A stretch of 64,000 nt of DNA from Janibacter massiliensis (GTDB taxonomy: Bacteria > Actinomycetota > Actinomycetes > Actinomycetales > Dermatophilaceae). Positions 1 to 11,423 of the stretch are shown one piece after another (positions within the stretch are counted from its first letter, which is position 1; each line of letters begins with the position of its first letter). Under the pieces are notes generated by a model that saw nothing but the letters and a program-made list of their open reading frames with translations, ran no database searches and was not told where the DNA came from. The position numbers and the translations under genes were made by a program. The DNA lies in NCBI RefSeq assembly GCF_900289115.1, contig NZ_LT985196.1:554980-618979 (forward strand), written 5' to 3'.

Positions 1-1
1 G

Positions 2-1810
2 GTGACGGACACGTCGGGGAGCGCCGTGCACCAGCGGGTCCGGTGGTGGTCCGCTCTGGCGATGCTGCGGACCCTCGCGTCCTCCCCGGCGGCCGCGGCG
101 GAGACCTTCCGCTCCCGGGCGGCTTCCGTGCAGGCTGAGGACCTGTCGACCGTCGACGCCCTCAGTCGGTCGCGGGTGTTCGACGCGGCGGACGACGAGG
201 CGGTCGAGGGCATGGACGTCTCCCCCGGCGCCGACCCGGGCACCGAGGCCGAGGGGGAACTCTCGTCCGCATCGCGCGAGCGCCGGACGCTGCGGGACCT
301 CGCGCGTCGGGCGGAGGCGCTGCGTGGCCCGACGGAGGACGCGAAGCTCGCCGTGGCGGTGCGCGAGGTCAAGCGCCTGCTCGCCGACGGGTACAACCCG
401 ATCGTGTTCTGCCGGTTCATCCAGACGGCCGAGTACGTCGCCGAGCACCTGAGCAACGCGCTCGGCAAGGGAATCGTCGTCGGGGCGGTGACCGGGACCC
501 TGCCGCCGGCGGAGCGCACCGAGCGCATCGCCGAGCTCACGGCGGACCCGGACAAGCGGCTCGTGCTCGTCGCCACCGACTGCTTGTCGGAGGGAGTCAA
601 CCTCCAGGAGCACTTCCAGGCGGTGCTCCACTACGACCTGGCGTGGAACCCGACGCGCCACGAGCAGCGCGAAGGCCGCGTCGACCGGTTCGGGCAGCGG
701 GCGAGGACGGTGCGGGCGCTGACGCTGTACGGCCCGGACACCCAGATCGACGGCATCGTCCTCGACGTCCTCATCCGACGGCACCGCGCCATCCGCAAGG
801 CGACGGGGGTGAGCGTGCCGGTCCCCGATCAGAACGACTCGGTCCTCGAGGCCCTGATGGAAGGCCTCCTCCTGCGGGGCGCGAGCGGCGACCAGCTGCT
901 GCTCGATGTCGATGTCTCGCGCGCGGACCACGACCTGGAGACAGCGTGGGAGTCCGCGGCGGCCAAGGAGAAGGACACCCGGACGAAGTACCAGCACGCG
1001 GCGCTGAAGCCGGAGGTCGTCGCCGACGAGGTCAACCGGATGCGTGAGGCCATCGGCACCGGCGCGGAGATCGAGCCGTTCGTCCGGTCGGTCCTCGTGG
1101 GGCTCGGCGGTCATATCACCGGCGACGCCGAGGACCGGCTCGAGGTCGCCACCGACACTCTCGACCCCGCGCTGCGGGACCTCCTGCCGCGCACCGGGCG
1201 CCACGGGTCGACCTTCGTCCGCACCGCACCCGCCCCGTCGGGCGCCGCGGCGCTGACGCGAACCGACCCGACCGTCGCCGCGGTGGCCCGCCACGTGCTC
1301 GAGTCGGCCTTGGACGCCAGCGTTCCGGGCGAACGTCTGGCCAGGCGGGCCGGGATCATCCGCACCACCGCCGTGACCGGACGGACGACGCTGCTGCTCG
1401 TGCGCTACCGCTTCCACCTCGATCTGCCGAGCCGGGAGAAGGGGACGCGCACGCTCGTCGCGGAGGACTGCGAGCTCCTCGCCTTCCGCGGAGCGCCGAG
1501 CAGCGCGCAGTGGCTCGACGCGGCGGAGACAAGCGCGCTCGCCGAGGCGCGGCCCGACGCGAACATCCCGCCGGACCAGGCGCGACAGGGCATCGCCACG
1601 ATGCTCGACCAGCTGCACCACGTCGAGGAGCACCTCACGGCACGGGCCGACGAGCGGGCGGCGGAGCTCGCCACCAGCCACGCCCGGGTCCGCGAAGGCG
1701 CGGGCGAGATCATCCGCGCGCTCAAGGTGCGTGCCGAGCACCCCGTCGACGTGCTCGGGGTCTACGTGTACCTGCCCGTCGTGGGCGCGACGAAGGGAGC
1801 CGGTTCGTGA
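2..1810 (+). CDS. drmD: SNF2-type helicase, DrmD-like, 5' truncated by window edge
   Basis: Carboxy-terminal part of a superfamily 2 helicase of SNF2 type. The frame is open to the first base, so the N-terminal ATP-binding lobe (Walker A, DExx) must lie before the window, and the GTG at base 2 is probably internal. After a weakly conserved linker comes the second RecA-like lobe at about residues 118-270: strand IVFCRFIQTAEYV, motif V in ATDCLSEGVNLQ, and motif VI with the arginine finger in QREGRVDRFGQ. A family-specific tail of about 330 residues follows. The layout, and the methylase coupled behind it, match the helicase DrmD of class 1 DISARM, which restricts phage DNA. The stop overlaps the next start as GTGA. 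A generic SNF2 restriction helicase cannot be excluded without the missing half. Confidence 0.8.
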   Translation: MTDTSGSAVHQRVRWWSALAMLRTLASSPAAAAETFRSRAASVQAEDLSTVDALSRSRVFDAADDEAVEGMDVSPGADPGTEAEGELSSASRERRTLRDLARRAEALRGPTEDAKLAVAVREVKRLLADGYNPIVFCRFIQTAEYVAEHLSNALGKGIVVGAVTGTLPPAERTERIAELTADPDKRLVLVATDCLSEGVNLQEHFQAVLHYDLAWNPTRHEQREGRVDRFGQRARTVRALTLYGPDTQIDGIVLDVLIRRHRAIRKATGVSVPVPDQNDSVLEALMEGLLLRGASGDQLLLDVDVSRADHDLETAWESAAAKEKDTRTKYQHAALKPEVVADEVNRMREAIGTGAEIEPFVRSVLVGLGGHITGDAEDRLEVATDTLDPALRDLLPRTGRHGSTFVRTAPAPSGAAALTRTDPTVAAVARHVLESALDASVPGERLARRAGIIRTTAVTGRTTLLLVRYRFHLDLPSREKGTRTLVAEDCELLAFRGAPSSAQWLDAAETSALAEARPDANIPPDQARQGIATMLDQLHHVEEHLTARADERAAELATSHARVREGAGEIIRALKVRAEHPVDVLGVYVYLPVVGATKGAGS

Positions 1811-4800
1811 AGGGCGACTTCTCGACCATCCGCACGGTCGGCACGACCCTCCCGGCGGAGCTCCTCGAGCGGGTCGTCGCCGGGGACACCCAGCTCGGCC
1901 GACTGTCGGCCGCGGACTACCACCTCGCCGCGGGCGAGACCCCCCGGGCGGCGGCGCACCGCGCGTGGTCGTACCTCAAGCAGGCGTGGGTCGGCTTCCG
2001 AGGACAGATCGAGGGCCGCCGGGACGACGACCCGCTCATCGGGGTGACCCGCGACCAGTGGCTGCACGTCGTGCTGCGCGAGCTCGACTACGGGCGGGTG
2101 CCGCAGACGCCGGCCGGCGGCATCGTCGTCGACGAGCGGGCCTATCCCGTCTCGCACGAGTGGGGGGCGCTCCCCATCCACCTGCTCGGGTGGAACGTCC
2201 CCCTGGACCGCAGGTCCAAGGGGGTGCCGGGAGCGGCGGACCGGGCGCCGCACGCGATGGTGCAGGAGCTGCTCAACCGGTCCGAGGATCGCCTGTGGGG
2301 GATCCTCGCGAACGGCCGGAGCCTGCGGCTGCTCCGCGACTCGACGAACCTCACCGGGGTCTCGTACGTCGAGTTCGACCTCGAGACGATGTTCGACCAC
2401 GACGTCTTCAGCGACTTCGTCGTCCTCTACCTCCTGTGCCACCAGTCCCGCTTCGAGGTCGGTGAGGGCCAGCCGCCGACGGCCTGCCCCATCGAGACGT
2501 GGCGGTCCACGGCCCGTGACCTCGGCGTCCGGGCGCGGCAGGAGCTACGCGAGGGGGTTGCCCGGGCGCTCGAGCTGCTCGGCAACGGCTTCCTCACCCA
2601 CCCGGCGAACACCGAGCTGCGACGCCGCCTGTCCACCGGGGAGATGACGCACACCGAGCTCCACCGCGAGCTCATGCAGCTGGTCTACCGGCTGCTCTTC
2701 CTCTTCGTCGTCGAGGACCGCCCCGAGCGGGACCTCATCCTCGATCCCGCGATCACCCCGGCGCAGCGCGAGCGCTGGTCGGTGTACTACTCCAGTCGGG
2801 TGCTCCGGCGCCGCGCCCTCGTGCTGCGCCGGACGCGTCACGGCGACGAGTGGCAGCGGACGTGGACGGTGCTGCGGGGGCTCGGCGGTGACGGGATCCC
2901 GGAGCTCGGCGTCACCGGGCTGGGTGGGCTCTTCGCGCCGACACCGGGCGAGACCCTGGCGGCGGAGGCACTCACTCGGGCCGATCGATCCGCCCCGCTG
3001 TGCCAGATCGGCAACGACTCCTTTCTCGCCGCGGTCCGTGCGCTGTCCGTGATCCGGCTCAAGGGGCAGCCGGAGCAGGTCGTCGACTTCGGTCGCCTGG
3101 GCGCCGAGGAGCTCGGGGGCATCTACGAGTCGCTGCTCGAGCTCGTCCCGCACCTGGACATGTCGACGTGGGCCCTCTCGTACGGCGAGTACCTGGGCAA
3201 CGATCGGAAGACGACCGGGTCGTACTACACCCCGAGCGATCTCATCGACCTCGTTCTCGACGAGGCGCTCGACCCGTTGCTCGACGAGGCGGAGCGCGCC
3301 GACGACCCGGAGGCCGCACTGCTGGCGATGACGGTGTGCGACCCGGCGTGCGGGTCCGGGCACTTCCTCGTCGCGGCCGCCCGACGGATCGCCGAACGGG
3401 TCGCACTGGTGCGTTCGGAGACGCGGGACCTCCTGCCGGGCGACCTCGACGCGGCGATGCGCGATGTCGTCGTCCGGTGCATCTACGGCGTCGACCTCCA
3501 GCCGATGGCCGCCCAGCTCGCGAAGGTCGCGCTGTGGCTCGAGTCGATGGAGCGCGGGAAGCCGCTCGCCTTCCTCGACCACCACATCAAGGTCGGCAAC
3601 TCCCTGCTCGGGGCGACTCCGGCGCTGCTGTCCCGGGGTGTGCCGGACGGCGCGTACGCGGTGCTCACCGGGGACGACAAGAAGGTCGCCGCGGCGCTGA
3701 AGAAGCAGAACCGCACCGAGCGGGTCGCCAAGCAGTCCACCCTCCTCAGCCAGGACGACGACGCCGAGGGGATCGAGATCGCGCCCGAGCGGGTGCGCGC
3801 ACTCCAGGCGGTCGTCCCGCAGCGCACCGCCGCCGAGGTCGCGGCGGTTGCCGAGCGGTTCCGCGCGCTGGAAAGCGACGACGAGATGACGCGCGCCCGG
3901 CGCGCCGCGGACACGTGGTGCTCCGCCTTCACCGCGCCGAAGGTCGATTCCAGCCGGGCAATCACCACGGAGACGGTGCGCAACGCTGCGCACGGCACGC
4001 TGCCGGCTGTGCTAGGCGAGATCGTGTCGGAGGAGGCGACCCGCTACCGCTTCTTCCACTGGCACCTCGAGTTCCCCGAGGTCTTCACCCCGCTGCCGGC
4101 GGACGACATCCCCGACGACGACCCGACCGGCTGGGCGGGCGGGTTCACGGCGATGCTCGGCAACCCGCCCTGGGACCGCGTGAAGCTGCAGGAGAAGGAG
4201 TTCTTCGCGCACCGGGACGCCGCCGTGGCCGCGGCTCCGAACGCCGCCGCACGCAAGCGGCTCATCACCGCGCTCGTGGAGTCGAACCCCACGCTGGCGG
4301 CGGAGTGGCAGGATGCTGTTCACCAGTCCGAGGCGACGAGCGCTCTGCTGCGGGTGTCGGGGCGGTTCCCCCTGTGCGGGACGGGGGATGTCAACACGTA
4401 CAGCGTCTTCGCCGAGCTGTTCCGCTCGTCGCTGTCCCCCGCCGGCCGCATGGGGATCATCACACCGACCGGCCTCGCAACGGATGCGACGACCTCAGCG
4501 TTCTTCGCCGACACGCTCCAGGCCCGGCGCCTCGGGACGTTCTACGACTTCGAGAACGAGGCGAAGATCTTCGCGGGCGTCCACAACCAGTTCCGCTTCG
4601 CGGTGACGTCGATGACCGGTGGAGTTCGTGCTGATCGCACGCGCCTCGCGTTTTACACCCGATTCATCGCCGACGTGCCCGATCGCCGGTTCGAGCTCAG
4701 CGCCGACGAGATCCTCCGGATCAACCCCAACACCGGGACACTTCCGCTGTTCCGTACCCGCCGGGATGCGGAGATCACCCTCGCGGTGTACCGCCGGTTC

Positions 4801-5844
4801 CCGGTTCTCATCGACGACGCGACCGGCACGAACCCCTGGGGTCTGCGCTTCATGCGGATGTTCGACATGGCCAACGACTCTGGTCTGTTCCGGACCGGCG
4901 AGCAGCTCGCGCAGGACGGGGCGGAGTTCGACGGGTGGGCGTGGACCTCCGGCCCCCGGCGCTGGGTCCCGTTGTACGAGGCGAAGATGCTCGGCCACTA
5001 CGACCATCGGTTTTCGACATACCGTGGCGCCACACAGGCGCAGCTGAACAAGGGCACGCTCCCCCACCCCGACGCGGCCGCCCACGACGACCCGTCGATG
5101 GAACCCTTGGCCCGCTACTGGATCCACGAACGCGAGGTCGACAAGCAGCTCGATAATCGCTGGGACCGCGACTGGCTCCTCGGCTGGCGCGACATCGCTC
5201 GCGCTAGCGATGCCCGGACCTGCGTACCGAGCGCAATGCCGATCTCAGCCGTCGGTGGTGGTTTCTACCTTGCGTTCCCAAGGCAGGGCGGCGACGGCCC
5301 TCTTCTTGAGGGCGTGTGGTCGAGCTTTGCGTATGACTTCCTCGCCCGACAGAAGGTGAGCGGCGCTCACCTCAACCTCTCGCCGATGAGGCAGCTGGCG
5401 TGCCCGACGCCGGGCGAGGTCGCGGCATCTCTCCGTGGCGTCGACTCGACGTCATACGCGGGTTGGCTGCGCCCGCGGGTGCTCGAGCTGACGTACACCT
5501 CGTGGCGCATGGCCCCGTTCGCGGTCGACTGCCTAGAGCTCCCCGACGGGACGGACCCCGGCCCGCCATTCCGGTGGATCCCGGAGCGACGGGAGCAGCT
5601 GCGCGCCGAGATCGACGCCGCGATGTTCCACCTCTACGGCATGCCCCGAGAGGACGTCGAGCACGTCATGGGTTCGTTCACCGTGGTCCGGAAGTACGAG
5701 CTGCGCGACCACGGCGAGTTCCGGACGAAGCGCCTCATCCTCGAGATCTACGACGCCATGGCCGACGCCGCCGCCCGCGGCACGGTCTACACCTCACCCC
5801 TCGACCCCCCGCCGGGGCATGGACCTCGGCACGGATCGCGGTAG
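1807..5844 (+). CDS. drmMI: Eco57I-class adenine-N6 DNA methyltransferase, DrmMI-like
   Basis: Large (1345 residues) DNA adenine methylase that would mark host DNA so the defence system spares it. The SAM-binding motif I is DPACGSGHF from residue 512, and the catalytic motif IV is NPPW from residue 786; both are typical of the Eco57I / type IIG class. The N-terminal 500 residues are helical and family-specific, resembling DrmMI of class 1 DISARM rather than a type IIG enzyme, and I see no nuclease motif fused to it. The GTG start at 1807 overlaps the helicase stop, and the following gene begins 9 bases after its TAG, so all are probably one transcript. In DISARM, drmA, drmB and drmC should follow; here they do not. 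Confidence 0.85.
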   Translation: MKGDFSTIRTVGTTLPAELLERVVAGDTQLGRLSAADYHLAAGETPRAAAHRAWSYLKQAWVGFRGQIEGRRDDDPLIGVTRDQWLHVVLRELDYGRVPQTPAGGIVVDERAYPVSHEWGALPIHLLGWNVPLDRRSKGVPGAADRAPHAMVQELLNRSEDRLWGILANGRSLRLLRDSTNLTGVSYVEFDLETMFDHDVFSDFVVLYLLCHQSRFEVGEGQPPTACPIETWRSTARDLGVRARQELREGVARALELLGNGFLTHPANTELRRRLSTGEMTHTELHRELMQLVYRLLFLFVVEDRPERDLILDPAITPAQRERWSVYYSSRVLRRRALVLRRTRHGDEWQRTWTVLRGLGGDGIPELGVTGLGGLFAPTPGETLAAEALTRADRSAPLCQIGNDSFLAAVRALSVIRLKGQPEQVVDFGRLGAEELGGIYESLLELVPHLDMSTWALSYGEYLGNDRKTTGSYYTPSDLIDLVLDEALDPLLDEAERADDPEAALLAMTVCDPACGSGHFLVAAARRIAERVALVRSETRDLLPGDLDAAMRDVVVRCIYGVDLQPMAAQLAKVALWLESMERGKPLAFLDHHIKVGNSLLGATPALLSRGVPDGAYAVLTGDDKKVAAALKKQNRTERVAKQSTLLSQDDDAEGIEIAPERVRALQAVVPQRTAAEVAAVAERFRALESDDEMTRARRAADTWCSAFTAPKVDSSRAITTETVRNAAHGTLPAVLGEIVSEEATRYRFFHWHLEFPEVFTPLPADDIPDDDPTGWAGGFTAMLGNPPWDRVKLQEKEFFAHRDAAVAAAPNAAARKRLITALVESNPTLAAEWQDAVHQSEATSALLRVSGRFPLCGTGDVNTYSVFAELFRSSLSPAGRMGIITPTGLATDATTSAFFADTLQARRLGTFYDFENEAKIFAGVHNQFRFAVTSMTGGVRADRTRLAFYTRFIADVPDRRFELSADEILRINPNTGTLPLFRTRRDAEITLAVYRRFPVLIDDATGTNPWGLRFMRMFDMANDSGLFRTGEQLAQDGAEFDGWAWTSGPRRWVPLYEAKMLGHYDHRFSTYRGATQAQLNKGTLPHPDAAAHDDPSMEPLARYWIHEREVDKQLDNRWDRDWLLGWRDIARASDARTCVPSAMPISAVGGGFYLAFPRQGGDGPLLEGVWSSFAYDFLARQKVSGAHLNLSPMRQLACPTPGEVAASLRGVDSTSYAGWLRPRVLELTYTSWRMAPFAVDCLELPDGTDPGPPFRWIPERREQLRAEIDAAMFHLYGMPREDVEHVMGSFTVVRKYELRDHGEFRTKRLILEIYDAMADAAARGTVYTSPLDPPPGHGPRHGSR

Positions 5845-5852
5845 GGGTACTG

Positions 5853-7046
5853 GTGCTCGTCTATCCCGTCGACGTCGAGTCACACAGCGACGACCTCCTC
5901 TGCACCGCCGTCAGGCAGCAGCTCGCCCAGCCGCTGACCCCCGATATCGGCCCGGTGCCCGCGCTTGACCGTCCGCTGCGTACGCGAGTCCCCGACATCC
6001 TCCTCCGTCTCGGGCTGGTGATGTCTGCGCAGGGACGAACCGGCGGAGGTCGGACACGCTCAACCGACGCGCTGTGGCCGATTCTCAAGTACTTCCACTT
6101 CTTCCGTCGTTCCCGCCGAGGCGGACTGCTGGCGGGACCCGACGCTGCCCGTTATCGACATCACAGCCGCGGCGCCGTCTCAGACGAGCTCGGCATGGCG
6201 TTCAGTCTCCTTGCGGCTGAAAGATGGATCGTGGACGCCGGTCTGATCCCAGGCAACATCGTTGACCTCGAACGCCACCCGGGGCCGCTGGCCCTCAACC
6301 TCGCCAGAGGCCGGCGCCCCGATTTCGGTTACGAGGCATTCGACCTCGGGACCATGACCCCGAGGTGGCTCACAGTCGAGGCCAAAGGAGCATCCGCGCC
6401 CGCGTCCGAGACGCGCGCGGCGAAGCAATTGGCTGACGCGCACGGGCAAATCACAGCGCTGCCCAACATCAGCGGGCTCGCATCGGTGACCTTCACCGGT
6501 CGTGGCCCCGTGTCCATCTGGGCCGTCGCCGCACCCGCGGAGGAACCGCTCGATCCCGTGCTTGCGGATTTCTTCAAGTTCTCTGCAGGTCGACGACGTC
6601 ACCGGCCCGAGGCGCGCCTACGTCATTCGATCAGCGCTCTCGCCGCGTGGTCAGGGGTGAACATGCTTCTAGGTCAGGAACGTGAGGCCCCGGTCGAATA
6701 CACCTCATTACGGGACGAGTGGATGGGCCACCTCGACGTCTACGGCCGCAGAGGGCAGCTCGAGGGTCTGGAGATCTTTCGCGGGATCGATGCCCCCCTG
6801 GCCGAGTCGTTGCTCAAGGGAGACGTCGACATGTACCTCTCCGCACGTGTGCAATTGGCCGAACAGTGGTTCGCACGTCAGTCGAGGATCGATGAAGATG
6901 ACTACCGTGAGCTCTATGAGCCCGGCTCGACAACGTGGGTGACCGCCCTTGCGCCCAACGGTGCGATCCTGGCGATCCGCGGTCGGGTGAAGGTGCCCGA
7001 ACGCGATCCCCGAGCGACGAGACTGGAGGAGATGGACGATGAGTGA
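5853..7046 (+). CDS. Unrecognised defence protein with PD-(D/E)XK nuclease signature
   Basis: I do not recognise the family of this 397-residue protein. It does contain the core order of the restriction-endonuclease fold: a helix with an acidic residue (SDELGMAF, E112), then RPDF with D157, then a beta strand reading LTVEAKG with E176 and K178, i.e. D-(18)-E-A-K, followed by a helix rich in A, K and Q. That is the catalytic PD-(D/E)XK arrangement, so a DNA-cleaving effector is likely (inference). The first 100 residues are basic and may bind DNA. GTG at 5853 is the first usable start after the methylase stop; GTG 6018 or ATG 6021 would drop 55-56 residues. The end overlaps the mcrB-like start by 8 bases (7039-7046), implying co-translation. 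Confidence 0.65.
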   Translation: MLVYPVDVESHSDDLLCTAVRQQLAQPLTPDIGPVPALDRPLRTRVPDILLRLGLVMSAQGRTGGGRTRSTDALWPILKYFHFFRRSRRGGLLAGPDAARYRHHSRGAVSDELGMAFSLLAAERWIVDAGLIPGNIVDLERHPGPLALNLARGRRPDFGYEAFDLGTMTPRWLTVEAKGASAPASETRAAKQLADAHGQITALPNISGLASVTFTGRGPVSIWAVAAPAEEPLDPVLADFFKFSAGRRRHRPEARLRHSISALAAWSGVNMLLGQEREAPVEYTSLRDEWMGHLDVYGRRGQLEGLEIFRGIDAPLAESLLKGDVDMYLSARVQLAEQWFARQSRIDEDDYRELYEPGSTTWVTALAPNGAILAIRGRVKVPERDPRATRLEEMDDE

Positions 7047-9252
7047 GAGCGTGCGCAAGGAAGTTCTGATCGCAGCCCTCATCGACGTCCTCCGTGAGTC
7101 GCACGGGCACCTGCCTGCGTCCCAGGCCATCGAGGCGGTGCGGCAACGCGTCGAGCTGACCGAATACGAGCTCAGCCGGAACCCGAGCGGCCACGAGCGG
7201 TTCGACACCTTCCTCCGGTGGGAGTCCTCCGGGCTCGTCACCCTCGGGTGGATCGTCAAGGAGTACGACGGCTGGGTCGTCACCGAGGCCGGTCGCGCGG
7301 CGATGTCCGCGCCCCGTCCCGAGAACGGCTGGTACCGCTTCTACCAAGAGCTGTACAGGCGCGAGAAGGCCCGCCTCCGGTTGGAGGAGCGACGAACGGC
7401 TGCCGAGCTAACCATCGCCACGGCGCTCGACCTCCTCGAACCTGGCACGTGGACGGGTCTGGACGACCTCGTGAGCTGCGTCGAGACCGACGAGGACGCT
7501 GTCGTGACGTGGCTCGCCGCGCACCAAGGAGCTGCGACGCGACGCGTGCTCGGCGCCGAGGGCCAGGTCCTCGACCGCCCGCGATGGCGACCGGACGACG
7601 ACGCCGACTCCATACGCGCAGCGCTCGTCGCTGAGGGGTTGCAGTTCGACCCGGCCACCGGTCGGGCGAGCCTTGCCGGCCACCTCGGGCGGGAGGACCT
7701 CTTGCCAGACGAGGGAGACCCGGAGACGACGACGCGCGCGTGGCTGGTGCGCGGGTCGAACGTGTCCGGCAAGGACATGGTGCCGACCTGGCTGCGGGAG
7801 TCCTTCGTCTCCCTCGCCGCGACCCACCTCCGCACACTGAGCCTTCCGGTGGAACGGCGGCAGATCGCCGAGGCCGTCGAGATCGATTACGCGTCGCAGT
7901 CGTACAACCAGCGGTCCAACCGCTTGCGGTCGTTCGACCTGTTTCTCAACCGGATGTCGATCGACGACGTCGTCGTGACGGTGAAGGGGAGCGACCTCGT
8001 CATCGGCCATCTGATCAGCGAGCCGACGCAGGTCGCCTCGTCCGGCGGGCTGAGCAACCTGAGGCGTGAGGTTCGGTGGGAGAACCCCGATCGACCGGTG
8101 CCGTTCAGCGACCTACCCGAGGGCGTCAAGGCACGGCTGAAGTCCCAGGACGACGTCATCGACCTGACGACCCAGCTCGACGCCCTCCGCGAGCTCGCGG
8201 GGGAGACGACTAAGGACGAGACGGCCGAGGTCCCGGACGCCCCGCAGACCGCAGACCTCCAGGACCCGACGCAGGACCTCGCCGACGAGCTGCACGTCGA
8301 CCTCGAGTGGCTGCAGAAGACGACCCGGTTGCTCCGCCAGCGGAAGCAGATCATCTTCTACGGGCCCCCAGGCACGGGGAAGACGTACGTCGCGCAGAAG
8401 CTTGCCGAGGCCGTCACCGACGCGGACGCCGTGAAGCTCATCCAGTTCCACCCGGCGTACACGTACGAGGACTTCTTCGAGGGGTACCGCCCGACGCCGA
8501 ACGCGGCTGGCGACGGGGTCCAGCTCGCACTCCGGCCGGGGCCGTTCCGCAAGCTCGTCGACCGCGCCTCGGACAACCCAGGCACGGCCTACATCCTCAT
8601 CGTCGACGAGATCAACAGGGCCAACCTCGCCAAGGTGTTCGGTGAGCTGTACTTCCTCCTGGAGTACCGCAAGCACCCGATCGACCTGCTGTACGCCGAG
8701 CCCGATGCCGAGCCGTTCATCATGCCGCCGAACGTCTTCATCATCGGGACGATGAACACGGCCGACCGATCCATCGCGCTCGTCGATGCGGCCATGCGCA
8801 GACGGTTCGCCTTCCTCCCGATGCACCCGGACGAGCGGCCGACCGCGGGGCTGCTGCGGCGGTGGCTGGCGGCGAAGGGCGGCGACACCGAGCTCGCCGA
8901 CATCCACGACGAGCTGAACAGCCGAATCGACGACGCCGAGTTCAAGATCGGACCGTCGTACTTCATGCGGGATGAGGTCGCCGAGGAGGGCGGGCTCGAG
9001 CTGATGTGGGAGACGTCGATCGTCCCGCTGCTCGAAGAGCACTACTTCGGGGACTCTCAGGTCGACGTCGGTAGGCGGTTCTCGTTGGACGACGTTCGCA
9101 GGTCTGCGCGCCGTCTCCGCGAGCCGTCCGCCTCGCCGGCCGAGGGATCGACCGAGGGCCAGTCGTTCGATAGCACCGGCGGGGCAGCTGGCGCTCCGGA
9201 GCCCGGCGACGTTGACGCGCCCGGTGTGGACGAGGGCGCCGGTGACGCCTGA
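7039..9252 (+). CDS. mcrB: McrB-like AAA+ GTPase with N-terminal winged helix and EVE/PUA-like reader
   Basis: Motor subunit of a modification-dependent (type IV) restriction system, 737 residues. Residues 1-90 look like the Mrr-type winged helix. About 232-385 resemble an EVE/PUA-superfamily module: AWLVRG near the start, a ..FDLFLNRMSIDDVVVTVKG.. core with a bulky-acidic-VV pattern, then REVRWE and a closing VKARLKSQDDVI. Such modules flip out and read modified bases. The AAA+ domain has Walker A GPPGTGKT at 442-449, Walker B ILIVDEIN with D523 and E524, and the McrB signature GTMNTADRS near 570-580 followed by RRRF. The last 50 residues are acidic and disordered. ATG 7039 overlaps the previous gene by 8 bases, and mcrC starts inside its 3' end. 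Confidence 0.85.
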   Translation: MSESVRKEVLIAALIDVLRESHGHLPASQAIEAVRQRVELTEYELSRNPSGHERFDTFLRWESSGLVTLGWIVKEYDGWVVTEAGRAAMSAPRPENGWYRFYQELYRREKARLRLEERRTAAELTIATALDLLEPGTWTGLDDLVSCVETDEDAVVTWLAAHQGAATRRVLGAEGQVLDRPRWRPDDDADSIRAALVAEGLQFDPATGRASLAGHLGREDLLPDEGDPETTTRAWLVRGSNVSGKDMVPTWLRESFVSLAATHLRTLSLPVERRQIAEAVEIDYASQSYNQRSNRLRSFDLFLNRMSIDDVVVTVKGSDLVIGHLISEPTQVASSGGLSNLRREVRWENPDRPVPFSDLPEGVKARLKSQDDVIDLTTQLDALRELAGETTKDETAEVPDAPQTADLQDPTQDLADELHVDLEWLQKTTRLLRQRKQIIFYGPPGTGKTYVAQKLAEAVTDADAVKLIQFHPAYTYEDFFEGYRPTPNAAGDGVQLALRPGPFRKLVDRASDNPGTAYILIVDEINRANLAKVFGELYFLLEYRKHPIDLLYAEPDAEPFIMPPNVFIIGTMNTADRSIALVDAAMRRRFAFLPMHPDERPTAGLLRRWLAAKGGDTELADIHDELNSRIDDAEFKIGPSYFMRDEVAEEGGLELMWETSIVPLLEEHYFGDSQVDVGRRFSLDDVRRSARRLREPSASPAEGSTEGQSFDSTGGAAGAPEPGDVDAPGVDEGAGDA

Positions 9253-10468
9253 GCCGCTCGAGCTGCAGGAAGGGGTCGCCCGAGACGACTGCGATCTCAC
9301 GGTCGAGCAGGCGTTCGCACTCGACGCGTCCGGGTGGCTGACCGTGACGCGGTCCCCCGGCGGGCGGTGGACCGTCGCACCGAGGACATGGGTCGGATCT
9401 GCGCGAATCGGTGATCTCGACGTCGTCATCCGCCCCAAGCTGCCGATCCGGAGGGTGTTCTTCCTCCTCGGGTACGCGGCCGGGAACGACCGGTGGGACG
9501 CGACGCCTACCGCCATGGCGACGACGGATGACCTCGTCGATGCGATGGCGAGCGCGTTCGTCGCCCAGGCGGAGCGAGCGATCGGCCAGGGCTTGCTGCA
9601 GGGGTACCGCACGGTCGAGGACGCGCTGCCGGTCGTCCGCGGGCGGATACGGCTCGCCGACCAGATGCGGCAGCACTTCGGGTTGGCGCTCCCGGTCGAG
9701 GTCACCTACGACGAGTTCGACACCGACATCGCCGAGAACCAGATTCTCAAGGCGGCGGCGACGGTGCTGCTCCGCCTGCCGATGGTGCGGCAGGACACGC
9801 GGCGGCGACTCGCCCGGGTACACCGCTCGCTGGCGGACGTCTCGCCGCTCGTGCGCGGGAGCGTCCTGCCTCACTGGTCACCGACGCGCCTCAACGCGAG
9901 ATACCACGTGGCGGTGCCGCTCGCCGAGCTCGTGCTCCGATCGTGCTCTGTCGAGCAGGCCGCGGATCCGACCCAGCGGACGGCGGGCTTCATGATCAAC
10001 ATGGCGACCCTGTTCGAGGACTTCCTCGAACGTGCGCTCCGCGAGGCGATCGAAGGTCGGTTCGGTGGCGGGCTGAAGGGCCAGGACGGGCAGTGGCTCG
10101 ACACCGGCCAGTCCGTGTGGGTCAAGCCCGACCTCGTCTGGTACCCGACCGGGTCGTCGACGGCAGGGGCCGTGATCGACGCGAAGTACAAGGCGGAGAA
10201 GCCGTCCGGGTATCCGAACGCGGACCTGTACCAGATGCTCGCCTACTGCACGATCCTCGGCCTCGACCGGGGACACCTCGTGTACGCGAAGGGTCAGGCC
10301 GAGCCAGCGCACCGAGTCGTCCGCAACGCGGGCGTCACCCTGGTCCAGCACGCCCTCGACCTAGACCAGGAACCTGACGCGCTGCTAGTGCAGGTCGGAC
10401 ATCTCGCGACTAGGGTCGTCGCACGGGAGTCGGGCGTCAAGCCACGTAGGTCGGGGGACTCGAACTAG
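9242..10468 (+). CDS. mcrC: McrC nuclease subunit of the McrBC-type restriction complex
   Basis: Nuclease partner of the McrB-like AAA+ protein, 408 residues. The N-terminal half carries the McrC pattern VRGRIRLADQM and DEFDTDIAENQILKAAA. The C-terminal PD-(D/E)XK domain shows KPDLVWYP with D297 and VIDAKYKAE with D313 and K315, the usual D-x(n)-D-A-K form of McrC. GTG 9242 is chosen because it overlaps the mcrB end by 11 bases and gives the family length; TTG 9212 is the only longer alternative of note. In known McrBC, the AAA+ ring translocates DNA after the reader finds a modified base and McrC makes the cut. Here the reader differs from the classical McrB N domain, so the recognised modification is unknown. 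Confidence 0.88.
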   Translation: MTPEPLELQEGVARDDCDLTVEQAFALDASGWLTVTRSPGGRWTVAPRTWVGSARIGDLDVVIRPKLPIRRVFFLLGYAAGNDRWDATPTAMATTDDLVDAMASAFVAQAERAIGQGLLQGYRTVEDALPVVRGRIRLADQMRQHFGLALPVEVTYDEFDTDIAENQILKAAATVLLRLPMVRQDTRRRLARVHRSLADVSPLVRGSVLPHWSPTRLNARYHVAVPLAELVLRSCSVEQAADPTQRTAGFMINMATLFEDFLERALREAIEGRFGGGLKGQDGQWLDTGQSVWVKPDLVWYPTGSSTAGAVIDAKYKAEKPSGYPNADLYQMLAYCTILGLDRGHLVYAKGQAEPAHRVVRNAGVTLVQHALDLDQEPDALLVQVGHLATRVVARESGVKPRRSGDSN

Positions 10469-10502
10469 TTCCGGCGGAAGCCGCGACGAGAACTTAGGGG
10501 CA

Positions 10503-11423
10503 GTGGTGGTCCGAGCGGAATTCGAAGAAAAAGAGTATGAAACCTTCGCGAATGTTGAATTGTACCAACTAGGGCGTCGGGGGCCACTGCCTCCCCTATG
10601 GACGCCCGGCCAGGTCCTCGAAGCAACTTTGGGCTACGACGCCGCGGCGAACGTGCGCCTAAATAAATCGCTTCGCCGAGCAATGGCGCTCCCGCCTAGG
10701 CGGCACGCGCGAATGGACGGCGTGACCACCGCGGCAATCTATCCCGCGCGTGGGCAGTATGCGAACATTCCACGATTTGTGGCGAGCCTATTTATCCAGT
10801 ATAAACGGCCTGACAGGATGAGCGGTCGAGGCCAGTCAGCACATCTCTGGAACGGCCAACGCTACTACCGTGCTCGAATCGAAACCGATTCCAACCAGTA
10901 TAGAATCCTCCGTGATCTCGATCAGATGGTTCATCCGAGGGCAGTCGTCCGCTATGCCGCGCCAGCATTCCACACTCGAACCGAACTCTTCGCATCTGCG
11001 TCGACCCACGCGGTCCTGGAACGGACAGCATTTCTTCGACCGGTTCGACTGAAGGACCAGCACACCTACTGGACCTACCGAATGCCTGGTAGCATGGGGC
11101 TGTGGAACCCCGCGGGGGATGCCTCCTATGCGGAGAGCATCGACCAAATGGTCGAAAACCTGTCGGATAGGCAGGAATCAGAAACACTCCAGTCCCATTT
11201 GAGAGAACTTTTTCTATCAATTGCAGAGGCCGATCACCTTGGCTTAACGGACAGCGACCGCCGCCTGCTAGATGCGTTCCTAGCGCCTAATGCGCGCATC
11301 GGGCGGCATTCGCAAGCGAGAGCGATACTCGCGATTTCCGGGTGGGTAGTGCGCCAACGCCTCACTTGGCGGCTGATAGCCCAACCACACGATCGCTACC
11401 GTGCTGGGATGATCGGGGCATGA
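10503..11423 (+). CDS. Unrecognised island protein, possible Q-x-K nuclease-like fold
   Basis: I cannot name this 306-residue protein. Its base composition is clearly more AT-rich than its neighbours, with codons such as aaa, gaa, tat and tta, which suggests a separate acquisition. An acidic first helix (EFEEKEYETF), then a GYD (D50), and then the strand LFIQYKRP with Q99 and K101 imitate the E / D / (E,Q)-x-K order of PD-(D/E)XK enzymes. It may therefore be a third nuclease-like component or an inactive relative; this is tentative. It lies 34 bases after mcrC. Its TGA overlaps the purB ATG at 11420, so ribosomes may pass from the island into purB. GTG 10503 is preceded by a TTAGGGG stretch usable as a ribosome site. 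Confidence 0.6.
   Translation: MVVRAEFEEKEYETFANVELYQLGRRGPLPPLWTPGQVLEATLGYDAAANVRLNKSLRRAMALPPRRHARMDGVTTAAIYPARGQYANIPRFVASLFIQYKRPDRMSGRGQSAHLWNGQRYYRARIETDSNQYRILRDLDQMVHPRAVVRYAAPAFHTRTELFASASTHAVLERTAFLRPVRLKDQHTYWTYRMPGSMGLWNPAGDASYAESIDQMVENLSDRQESETLQSHLRELFLSIAEADHLGLTDSDRRLLDAFLAPNARIGRHSQARAILAISGWVVRQRLTWRLIAQPHDRYRAGMIGA

Follow-up and report, generated by a model that had tools for sequence, protein, structure and literature searches.

According to passages of the 2025 preprint by Bell et al. (PMC12458937), ARMADA Type I comprises genes in the order YprA, BrxHII/SNF2, and PglX-like, and is abundant in Actinomycetota. Its YprA protein is nearest to DruE, contains a fused MZB/DUF1998 part, and carries a C-terminal Vsr nuclease that is called predicted active there. 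The same source, citing PMC11090510 (Bell et al. 2024), states that the DISARM-like YprA cassette is frequently tied to canonical McrBC operons. The relevant passages of PMC11090510 mention the association together with its Figure 2 (green branch) and defer its study; they describe an association only, and nuclease loss, reader domain, and cargo were not found in them. An excerpt of a 2026 review (PMC12904381) calls the final restriction of phage DNA by ARMADA, DISARM, and BREX unknown, and a table in it lists DNA cleavage for DISARM. Here, we analyzed a stretch of 64,000 nucleotides from Janibacter massiliensis (GCF_900289115.1, NZ_LT985196.1:554,980-618,979, forward strand; hereafter the window, with position 1 as its first letter). 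As judged from its genes, the locus at its start consists of an ARMADA-type-I-like cassette and, behind it in one same-strand run, McrBC (Table 1), with the same YprA/SNF2/PglX neighbourhood and the same NxxD-type McrB as the composite in PMC11090510. The composite is therefore not new and is known as an association, as already stated in passages of both sources. What is new here is that degeneration of the Vsr motif in the YprA-family helicase ArmC is linked, at the level of sequence, to McrBC or HNH genes downstream of the cassette. In the parts of the ARMADA and McrBC literature examined (PMC12458937, PMC11090510, PMC12904381), we found no report of Vsr loss tied to McrBC.

A first-pass annotation of the window had described five genes in one orientation, with overlaps of 4 bases (SNF2 helicase/methylase), 8 bases (PD-(D/E)XK protein/McrB), and 11 bases (McrB/McrC) and a gap of 8 bases (methylase/PD-(D/E)XK protein). 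All of these numbers agree with the open reading frames (ORFs) and with family searches, and a motif check found catalytic motifs in all five products. In the methylase ArmB these include NPPW at 786 and DPACGSG at 512. The annotation had furthermore interpreted the locus as DrmD-DrmMI of class 1 DISARM without a DrmAB core, and had proposed to look for drmA/B/C upstream of base 1. That interpretation turned out to be wrong, because a fused helicase of the YprA family, equivalent to DrmAB, sits upstream. The window begins within the SNF2 gene (armA), and the genomic DNA before it contains, instead of drmA/B/C, the gene for the 1711-amino-acid ArmC, which ends 10 bp before armA. The best PADLOC family of ArmC is DruE3 (1e-94), well ahead of DrmA (2e-18), and Pfam recognizes the MZB domain of a fused MZB/DUF1998 part. 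A separate drmA and drmB beside the helicase-methylase pair, as in class 1 DISARM, was not found at the locus, and a whole-genome search with the DrmA model gave no match above cut-off, the single weak match being ArmC itself. On the basis of the upstream gene and this search, class 1 DISARM beside McrBC was ruled out. Among the proteins scanned at the locus there was no PLD-type match indicating drmC; the genome was not searched for drmC. MZB domains occur in the genome only in ArmC and in one gene 168 kb away. The latter match (G000:C1:384851-385090) is the stronger one and lies in an open frame of 769 amino acids that probably encodes a plain YprA/MrfA-type repair helicase.

ArmA is matched by DrmD, BrxHI, and RapA models, none of them above the NCBIfam cut-off; the NCBIfam DrmD model scored 293 bits, under its cut-off of 610. 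The PADLOC scores were 267 bits for DrmD, 191 bits for BrxHI, and 1014 bits over residues 7-959 for PDLC02853. This last model is labelled DpdE and covers almost all of the ArmA-like helicase; as a name for ARMADA helicases, the label is probably incorrect. ArmB matched DrmMI in PADLOC (2e-60) and, below cut-off, BREX-2 PglX in NCBIfam (6.5e-12). By these comparisons, the helicase-methylase pair is nearer to ARMADA than to DISARM. The locus thus has the gene order of ARMADA Type I, its SNF2 helicase and PglX-like methylase, and a fused YprA helicase nearer to Druantia than to DISARM, and its nearest named relatives are likewise Actinomycetota. The PD and DGPxH motifs of the C-terminal Vsr are absent from its ArmC, and we therefore class the cassette as an ARMADA variant rather than a plain member; McrBC, a predicted PD-(D/E)XK protein, and a 306-amino-acid ORF are added in the run. 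With Druantia III (DruH-DruE) the locus shares DruE as the nearest PADLOC family of its helicase. In contrast to Druantia III, no DruH was found among the best 25 PADLOC families for each of seven proteins, and the locus has SNF2 and methylase genes instead.

The Vsr motif of ArmC usually reads PDFVY..VFVDGPxHD, and in the window cassette VPIVY..VFDLRD is found at this position. In the tail alignment, the Vsr-type domain has lost its motif and retained its fold and its end. We scored 50 of 56 ArmC rows; the other six (4 intact, 2 degenerate) were omitted as the relevant region was truncated or hidden by the end of a contig, and nine loci had no usable ArmC (L089, L103, L110, L111, L221, L223, L230, L238, L242). 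Vsr was degenerate in 16 and intact in 8 loci with McrBC directly downstream, degenerate in all five with McrBC further downstream, and degenerate in all six with an HNH gene downstream, which are all Pseudomonadota. Where neither was present, it was degenerate in 1 and intact in 14. The degenerate state was hence found in 27/35 loci with McrBC or HNH compared to 1/15 without (Fisher, p = 4e-6; direct McrBC alone, p = 2.5e-4). As loss of the Vsr motif is nearly confined to loci with another nuclease, the data match the prediction of a functional replacement. The motor motifs of ArmC have not decayed along with the nuclease, since Walker A and DELH keep at least 90% conservation across 38 aligned ArmC sequences.

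For this comparison, absence of a module was based on BLAST with McrBC and on annotation or, in unannotated loci, on the ORFs of the next 5 kb. L096 (mcrB start only, at a contig end), L219 (McrBC 3 kb after armB), and L224 (EVE-McrB) were counted as McrBC; L100 and L106 (AIPR), L104 (opposite-strand DUF4365), and L232 and L233 (SMC/DUF2326, no HNH) were counted as lacking a module. In L239, a NucS-type gene lies before armA on its upstream side. We then read eight further plasmid loci, one of them without ArmC, and the prediction set down beforehand held in 6/7: three loci with HNH were degenerate and three without a module were intact. The seventh, Kozakia L236, is degenerate without a module and has an IS21 element inserted directly after armB. 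In the combined set, Vsr is degenerate in 30/38 loci with a module and in 2/19 without (p = 1.4e-6). Regrouping doubtful loci left p between 1.4e-6 and 1.3e-4, exclusion of the HNH loci gave 2.7e-5, and p was 5.2e-5 with AIPR counted as a module and 1.9e-5 with the AIPR loci dropped. On the ArmC tree, about 10 independent pairs were available, of which 5-6 were concordant and none was opposed. A scan of viral contigs with the ArmA alignment returned eight loci. We read the two best (L242, L243) as ARMADA; L242 is cut, L243 has an intact Vsr and no module by BLAST, and neither is included in the counts. The same contigs gave no match to McrB.

A wide search with ArmA reached at least 7,996 relatives. 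Recurrence was assessed in 296 genomes of the class. ArmA matched 25 places in 24 genomes, and McrC was found in 52 genomes. At 13/25 armA places, mcrB and mcrC come next after the methylase gene in the same orientation; rare co-occurrence of cassette and McrBC would, according to the first-pass annotation, have spoken against a composite unit. DNA intervenes in three of the 13, namely the PD-(D/E)XK gene in the window, 4.9 kb in L066, and about 1 kb in L074. The remaining 12 comprise four places with McrB 13-19 kb past the methylase on the same strand, three cut by contig ends, and five without McrBC. Among 17 named loci on GTDB contigs, seven have McrBC, one has mcrB at the contig end, four have none, and five are cut or visible over less than 5 kb. 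The pair is also present on plasmids of Nocardioides, Deinococcus radiodurans, and Chloroflexota. Co-inheritance was measured as rank correlation with rpoB partialled out in 19 of 20 linked loci (L112 was dropped for a fragmentary rpoB match). ArmA correlated with McrC (0.74, p = 0.001) as closely as it did with ArmC (0.74), and with the middle part of McrB at 0.78. Weaker values were obtained for ArmA-ArmB (0.56), ArmA-McrB AAA (0.51), and ArmB-McrC (0.36); ArmB and the AAA part of McrB also track rpoB (0.52 and 0.46). By these correlations, cassette and McrBC units travel together, and the composite unit proposed in the first-pass annotation is indeed recurrent.

The window pair has the hallmarks of McrBC, with an NxxD motif in the AAA+ domain of McrB and PF10117 with a PD-(D/E)xK motif in McrC. 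McrB consists of a winged helix-turn-helix (residues 1-95), a region that resembles alkyltransferase-like domains (135-205), a region at 230-380 whose pattern we infer to be EVE/PUA-like, and the AAA+ domain (412-694). Its structure model (predicted local distance difference test, pLDDT, 84.9) matched E. coli McrB in Foldseek at 1.5e-17 through the AAA+ part, and a profile comparison with the PDB gave a weak match to Atl1 (E = 0.017). Among 30 McrB homologs searched with Pfam, 20 carry an Mrr_N winged helix and 22 the MGMT-type DNA-binding domain PF01035; the position of the acceptor cysteine is Ala in 21/30 and Cys in 0/30. The N-terminus thus resembles a winged helix plus an alkyltransferase-like reader, and likely reads a mark other than the N6-methyladenine predicted for ArmB. 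Other ARMADA-linked McrB proteins have EVE (L224), DUF4357 (L074), or Mrr_N (L107, L213) as readers. These differences between loci indicate that the reader is swapped while the motor stays. A limited literature search found no paper that names both "McrB" and "alkyltransferase-like".

The predicted PD-(D/E)XK protein is encoded between armB and mcrB, and its GTG start at 5853 is backed by an alignment of four relatives. Residues E111, D157, E176, and K178 are conserved in alignments of 5 and 12 sequences, and the core of its structure model (pLDDT 75.7) shows the order helix, three strands, helix, strand, which fits PD-(D/E)XK. The full-length protein has no Pfam match. A first search found only the query itself; a profile search found the family at 14 places in 12/296 genomes. 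As the window copy is, as far as the contigs show, the only one of these beside ARMADA, the idea that the protein is a constant component was rejected. Positions 2..11423 of the window also contain a sixth ORF on the same strand (10503-11423), which the first-pass annotation had not listed. It shows the conserved motifs FEEK..E, GQVLE..G.D, and Q(Y/F)KRP, and its family is possibly a QxK variant of PD-(D/E)XK; sequence-based PDB searches gave no useful match for either family. Its GC content is 58%, compared to 68-73% for ArmC, ArmA, ArmB, McrB, and McrC. Relatives were found in two other genomes of the class and in the ARMADA-McrBC locus L097, giving four copies (window 10503-11423, L097:18945-19895, L151:9684-10586, L152:9833-10801). 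That this ORF is a constant component was likewise rejected, although 2/4 copies sit in ARMADA-McrBC loci.

Taken together, the locus combines an ARMADA-like cassette and McrBC in one run, and we consider it probable that McrBC, perhaps with the PD-(D/E)XK protein, is the replacement nuclease, because the Vsr motif of ArmC itself is lost. The proposal of the first-pass annotation that a nuclease/McrBC module supplies the attack is thus probably right, given that loss of the Vsr motif is tied to downstream McrBC or HNH. ArmB would mark host DNA, probably with N6-methyladenine as predicted from its Eco57I/PglX type, and the two helicases would engage unmarked or replicating phage DNA, as extrapolated from ARMADA and DISARM. 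The cutter would be exchangeable, with Vsr acting in cassettes without a module and McrBC or HNH elsewhere; in the window, McrBC with or without the PD-(D/E)XK protein would cut phage DNA. The N-terminal reader of McrB, itself exchangeable, would determine the target, and the winged helix and alkyltransferase-like region without acceptor cysteine would recognize a base modification of another kind, possibly a bulky one. Alternatively, McrB could be loaded by the helicases. The paradox of a methylase beside McrBC would disappear in both cases, since either the marks of ArmB and McrB differ or the helicases load McrB; a simple answer is that the mark written by ArmB is likely not the one read by McrB. 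The link between Vsr loss and the downstream module would allow the predicted effector to be named locus by locus from the fate of the built-in nuclease. It would also explain why McrBC is frequent after the cassette, and it turns an association known at the level of a census into a testable mechanism.

More tentatively, ARMADA might be a nuclease-agnostic platform, whose core distinguishes self from non-self DNA and remodels it, and in which the exchangeable cutter docks 3' of armB and Vsr decays repeatedly. In Actinomycetota, Chloroflexota, and Deinococcota, the port 3' of armB would then accept McrBC, with the reader swapped; in Pseudomonadota it would accept HNH, frequently together with an SMC-like ATPase, and in the window PD-(D/E)XK plus other cargo. 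Here, cutting would occur only via McrC and the PD-(D/E)XK protein, guided partly by the alkyltransferase-like reader.

Several observations weigh against a replacement of the nuclease by McrBC. The first 50 tails were not scored blind, as classes were assigned after the tails had been seen; the test set by itself gives p = 0.14, and the sign test on independent pairs only p = 0.031 (0.031-0.0625). L104 and L236 are degenerate without McrBC or HNH, and the intact loci L100 and L106, counted as lacking a module, carry another defence gene, AIPR, at that place. In 8/24 loci with direct McrBC, Vsr is intact, and replacement is therefore permissive rather than obligate. The window's own McrB has no Pfam match to PF01035. 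The PD-(D/E)XK protein adjoins ARMADA at only 1/14 places, as far as the contigs show, and a fold search gave no match at E 0.001 or better, with FokI and MGME1 among the weak ones. In a rival account, Vsr is dispensable, or structural or DNA-binding, in some clades, and motif loss and McrBC/HNH are clade markers without causal link. In its favour, loci that share a motif state group together on the ArmC tree, which needs 9 changes against a shuffled mean of 18.9; the HNH loci of the first scoring, six in number, form one clade, the Vsr fold is retained with the domain end ..SVFG.. conserved, and a passage of PMC12458937 reports inactivated Vsr domains for Druantia I and II. However, the tree requires no fewer than 6 changes of state, no independent pair opposes the link, and the association stays without the HNH loci (p as given above), so that we rate this account as quite unlikely.

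Somewhat less unlikely, in our judgement, is that ARMADA I and McrBC, as a Type IV enzyme, are independent systems sharing a promoter or an island, the cassette acting against unmodified and McrBC against modified phage DNA without physical cooperation. McrBC of the same lineage is also found alone, without a cassette, and linked McrC proteins do not form one clade on the McrC tree (the length and score filter kept 53 of 60 candidates and removed seven, each of them unlinked). The tree shows 10 changes, at least 7 of them forced, against a shuffled mean of 16.2, with 0/500 shuffles as low. A single-clade origin of linked McrBC was thereby ruled out; together with the stand-alone McrBC, the 10 changes indicate that the module joined or left repeatedly. 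Co-inheritance, moreover, may reflect physical linkage only. Complementary BREX and type IV restriction on one island are in print: the defence island in passages of PMC8565348 likewise pairs a system built on a methylase with a type IV enzyme, BrxU, which is a GmrSD-family enzyme according to an excerpt of PMC12409352 and not McrBC, and its core differs. On the other hand, independence must accommodate overlapping genes, same-strand McrBC after armB at about half of the armA places, and co-inheritance equal to that inside the core, and it does not predict Vsr decay in McrBC/HNH loci. Highly improbable, finally, is a derivative of class 1 DISARM from which drmA/B/C disappeared and to which McrBC was added. 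The SNF2 helicase and the methylase are related to DrmD and DrmMI, but the DrmD match is below the equivalog cut-off, no DrmA above cut-off was found in the genome, and the YprA helicase directly upstream is a single fused protein, closest to DruE and probably belonging to a different clade. Replacement of Vsr by McrBC thus remains the reading that we prefer.

Table 1. Genes of the cassette-McrBC run (positions relative to the window, negative values upstream of position 1; lengths in amino acids).
Feature	Position	Strand	Length	Basis and remarks
ArmC-like YprA-family helicase	-6221..-1086 (G000:C1:548758-553893; L009:758-5893)		1711	Pfam DEAD 4e-25, Helicase_C, MZB 3e-8
ArmA-like SNF2/RapA/BrxHII helicase	1..1810, gene from -1075	+	961	PADLOC and NCBIfam models; complete gene from upstream genomic DNA
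ArmB-like PglX/Eco57I-type DNA methyltransferase	1807..5844	+	1345	Pfam Eco57I 3e-14, motifs
Predicted PD-(D/E)XK protein	5853..7046, GTG start	+	397	Cargo between armB and mcrB
McrB-like AAA+ protein	7039..9252	+	737	PRK11331 7e-47
McrC nuclease subunit	9242..10468	+		Pfam McrBC PF10117 1e-54; PD..DAKYK motif
Accessory ORF	10503..11423	+	306	Relatives and conserved motifs

The gene that follows the accessory ORF is presumably that of adenylosuccinate lyase, as read from its ORF. Pfam identified various genes after armB in related loci: an AAA_21 ATPase in L097, where it accompanies the relative of the 306-amino-acid ORF, AIPR in L100 and L106, and HNH_2 in a previously unannotated gene of L226. 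An AAA_21 ATPase lies between mcrB and mcrC in L105. The stretch between methylase and McrB in L066 (3600-8700) contains a TIR_2/SEFIR-type ORF by Pfam; others there are EVE-like, without Pfam match, or 13E12/HNH-like by appearance. In Pseudomonadota, an SMC-like/DUF2326 protein is annotated after the methylase in L227, L228, L232, L233, and L234. By the annotated ends, its gene overlaps that of the methylase by 17 bases in L228, L232, L233, and L234, and an HNH gene follows it in L227, L228, and L234.

Three further loci deserve mention. On plasmid MP1 of D. radiodurans R1 (L219:15829-20858), the methylase of an ARMADA cassette is read in three pieces, followed by McrB and McrC, which represents a natural variant with a broken armB in an organism used in the laboratory. 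The conjugative plasmid of Nocardioides sp. JS614 (L213:1-23736) carries, by annotation, DISARM drmA and drmB a few kb upstream of its ARMADA-McrBC run. In L155 (9330-10295), a fragment resembling the N-terminus of ARMADA YprA (52% identity over 1-223) lies beside a McrBC without cassette and is perhaps the remnant of a lost cassette.

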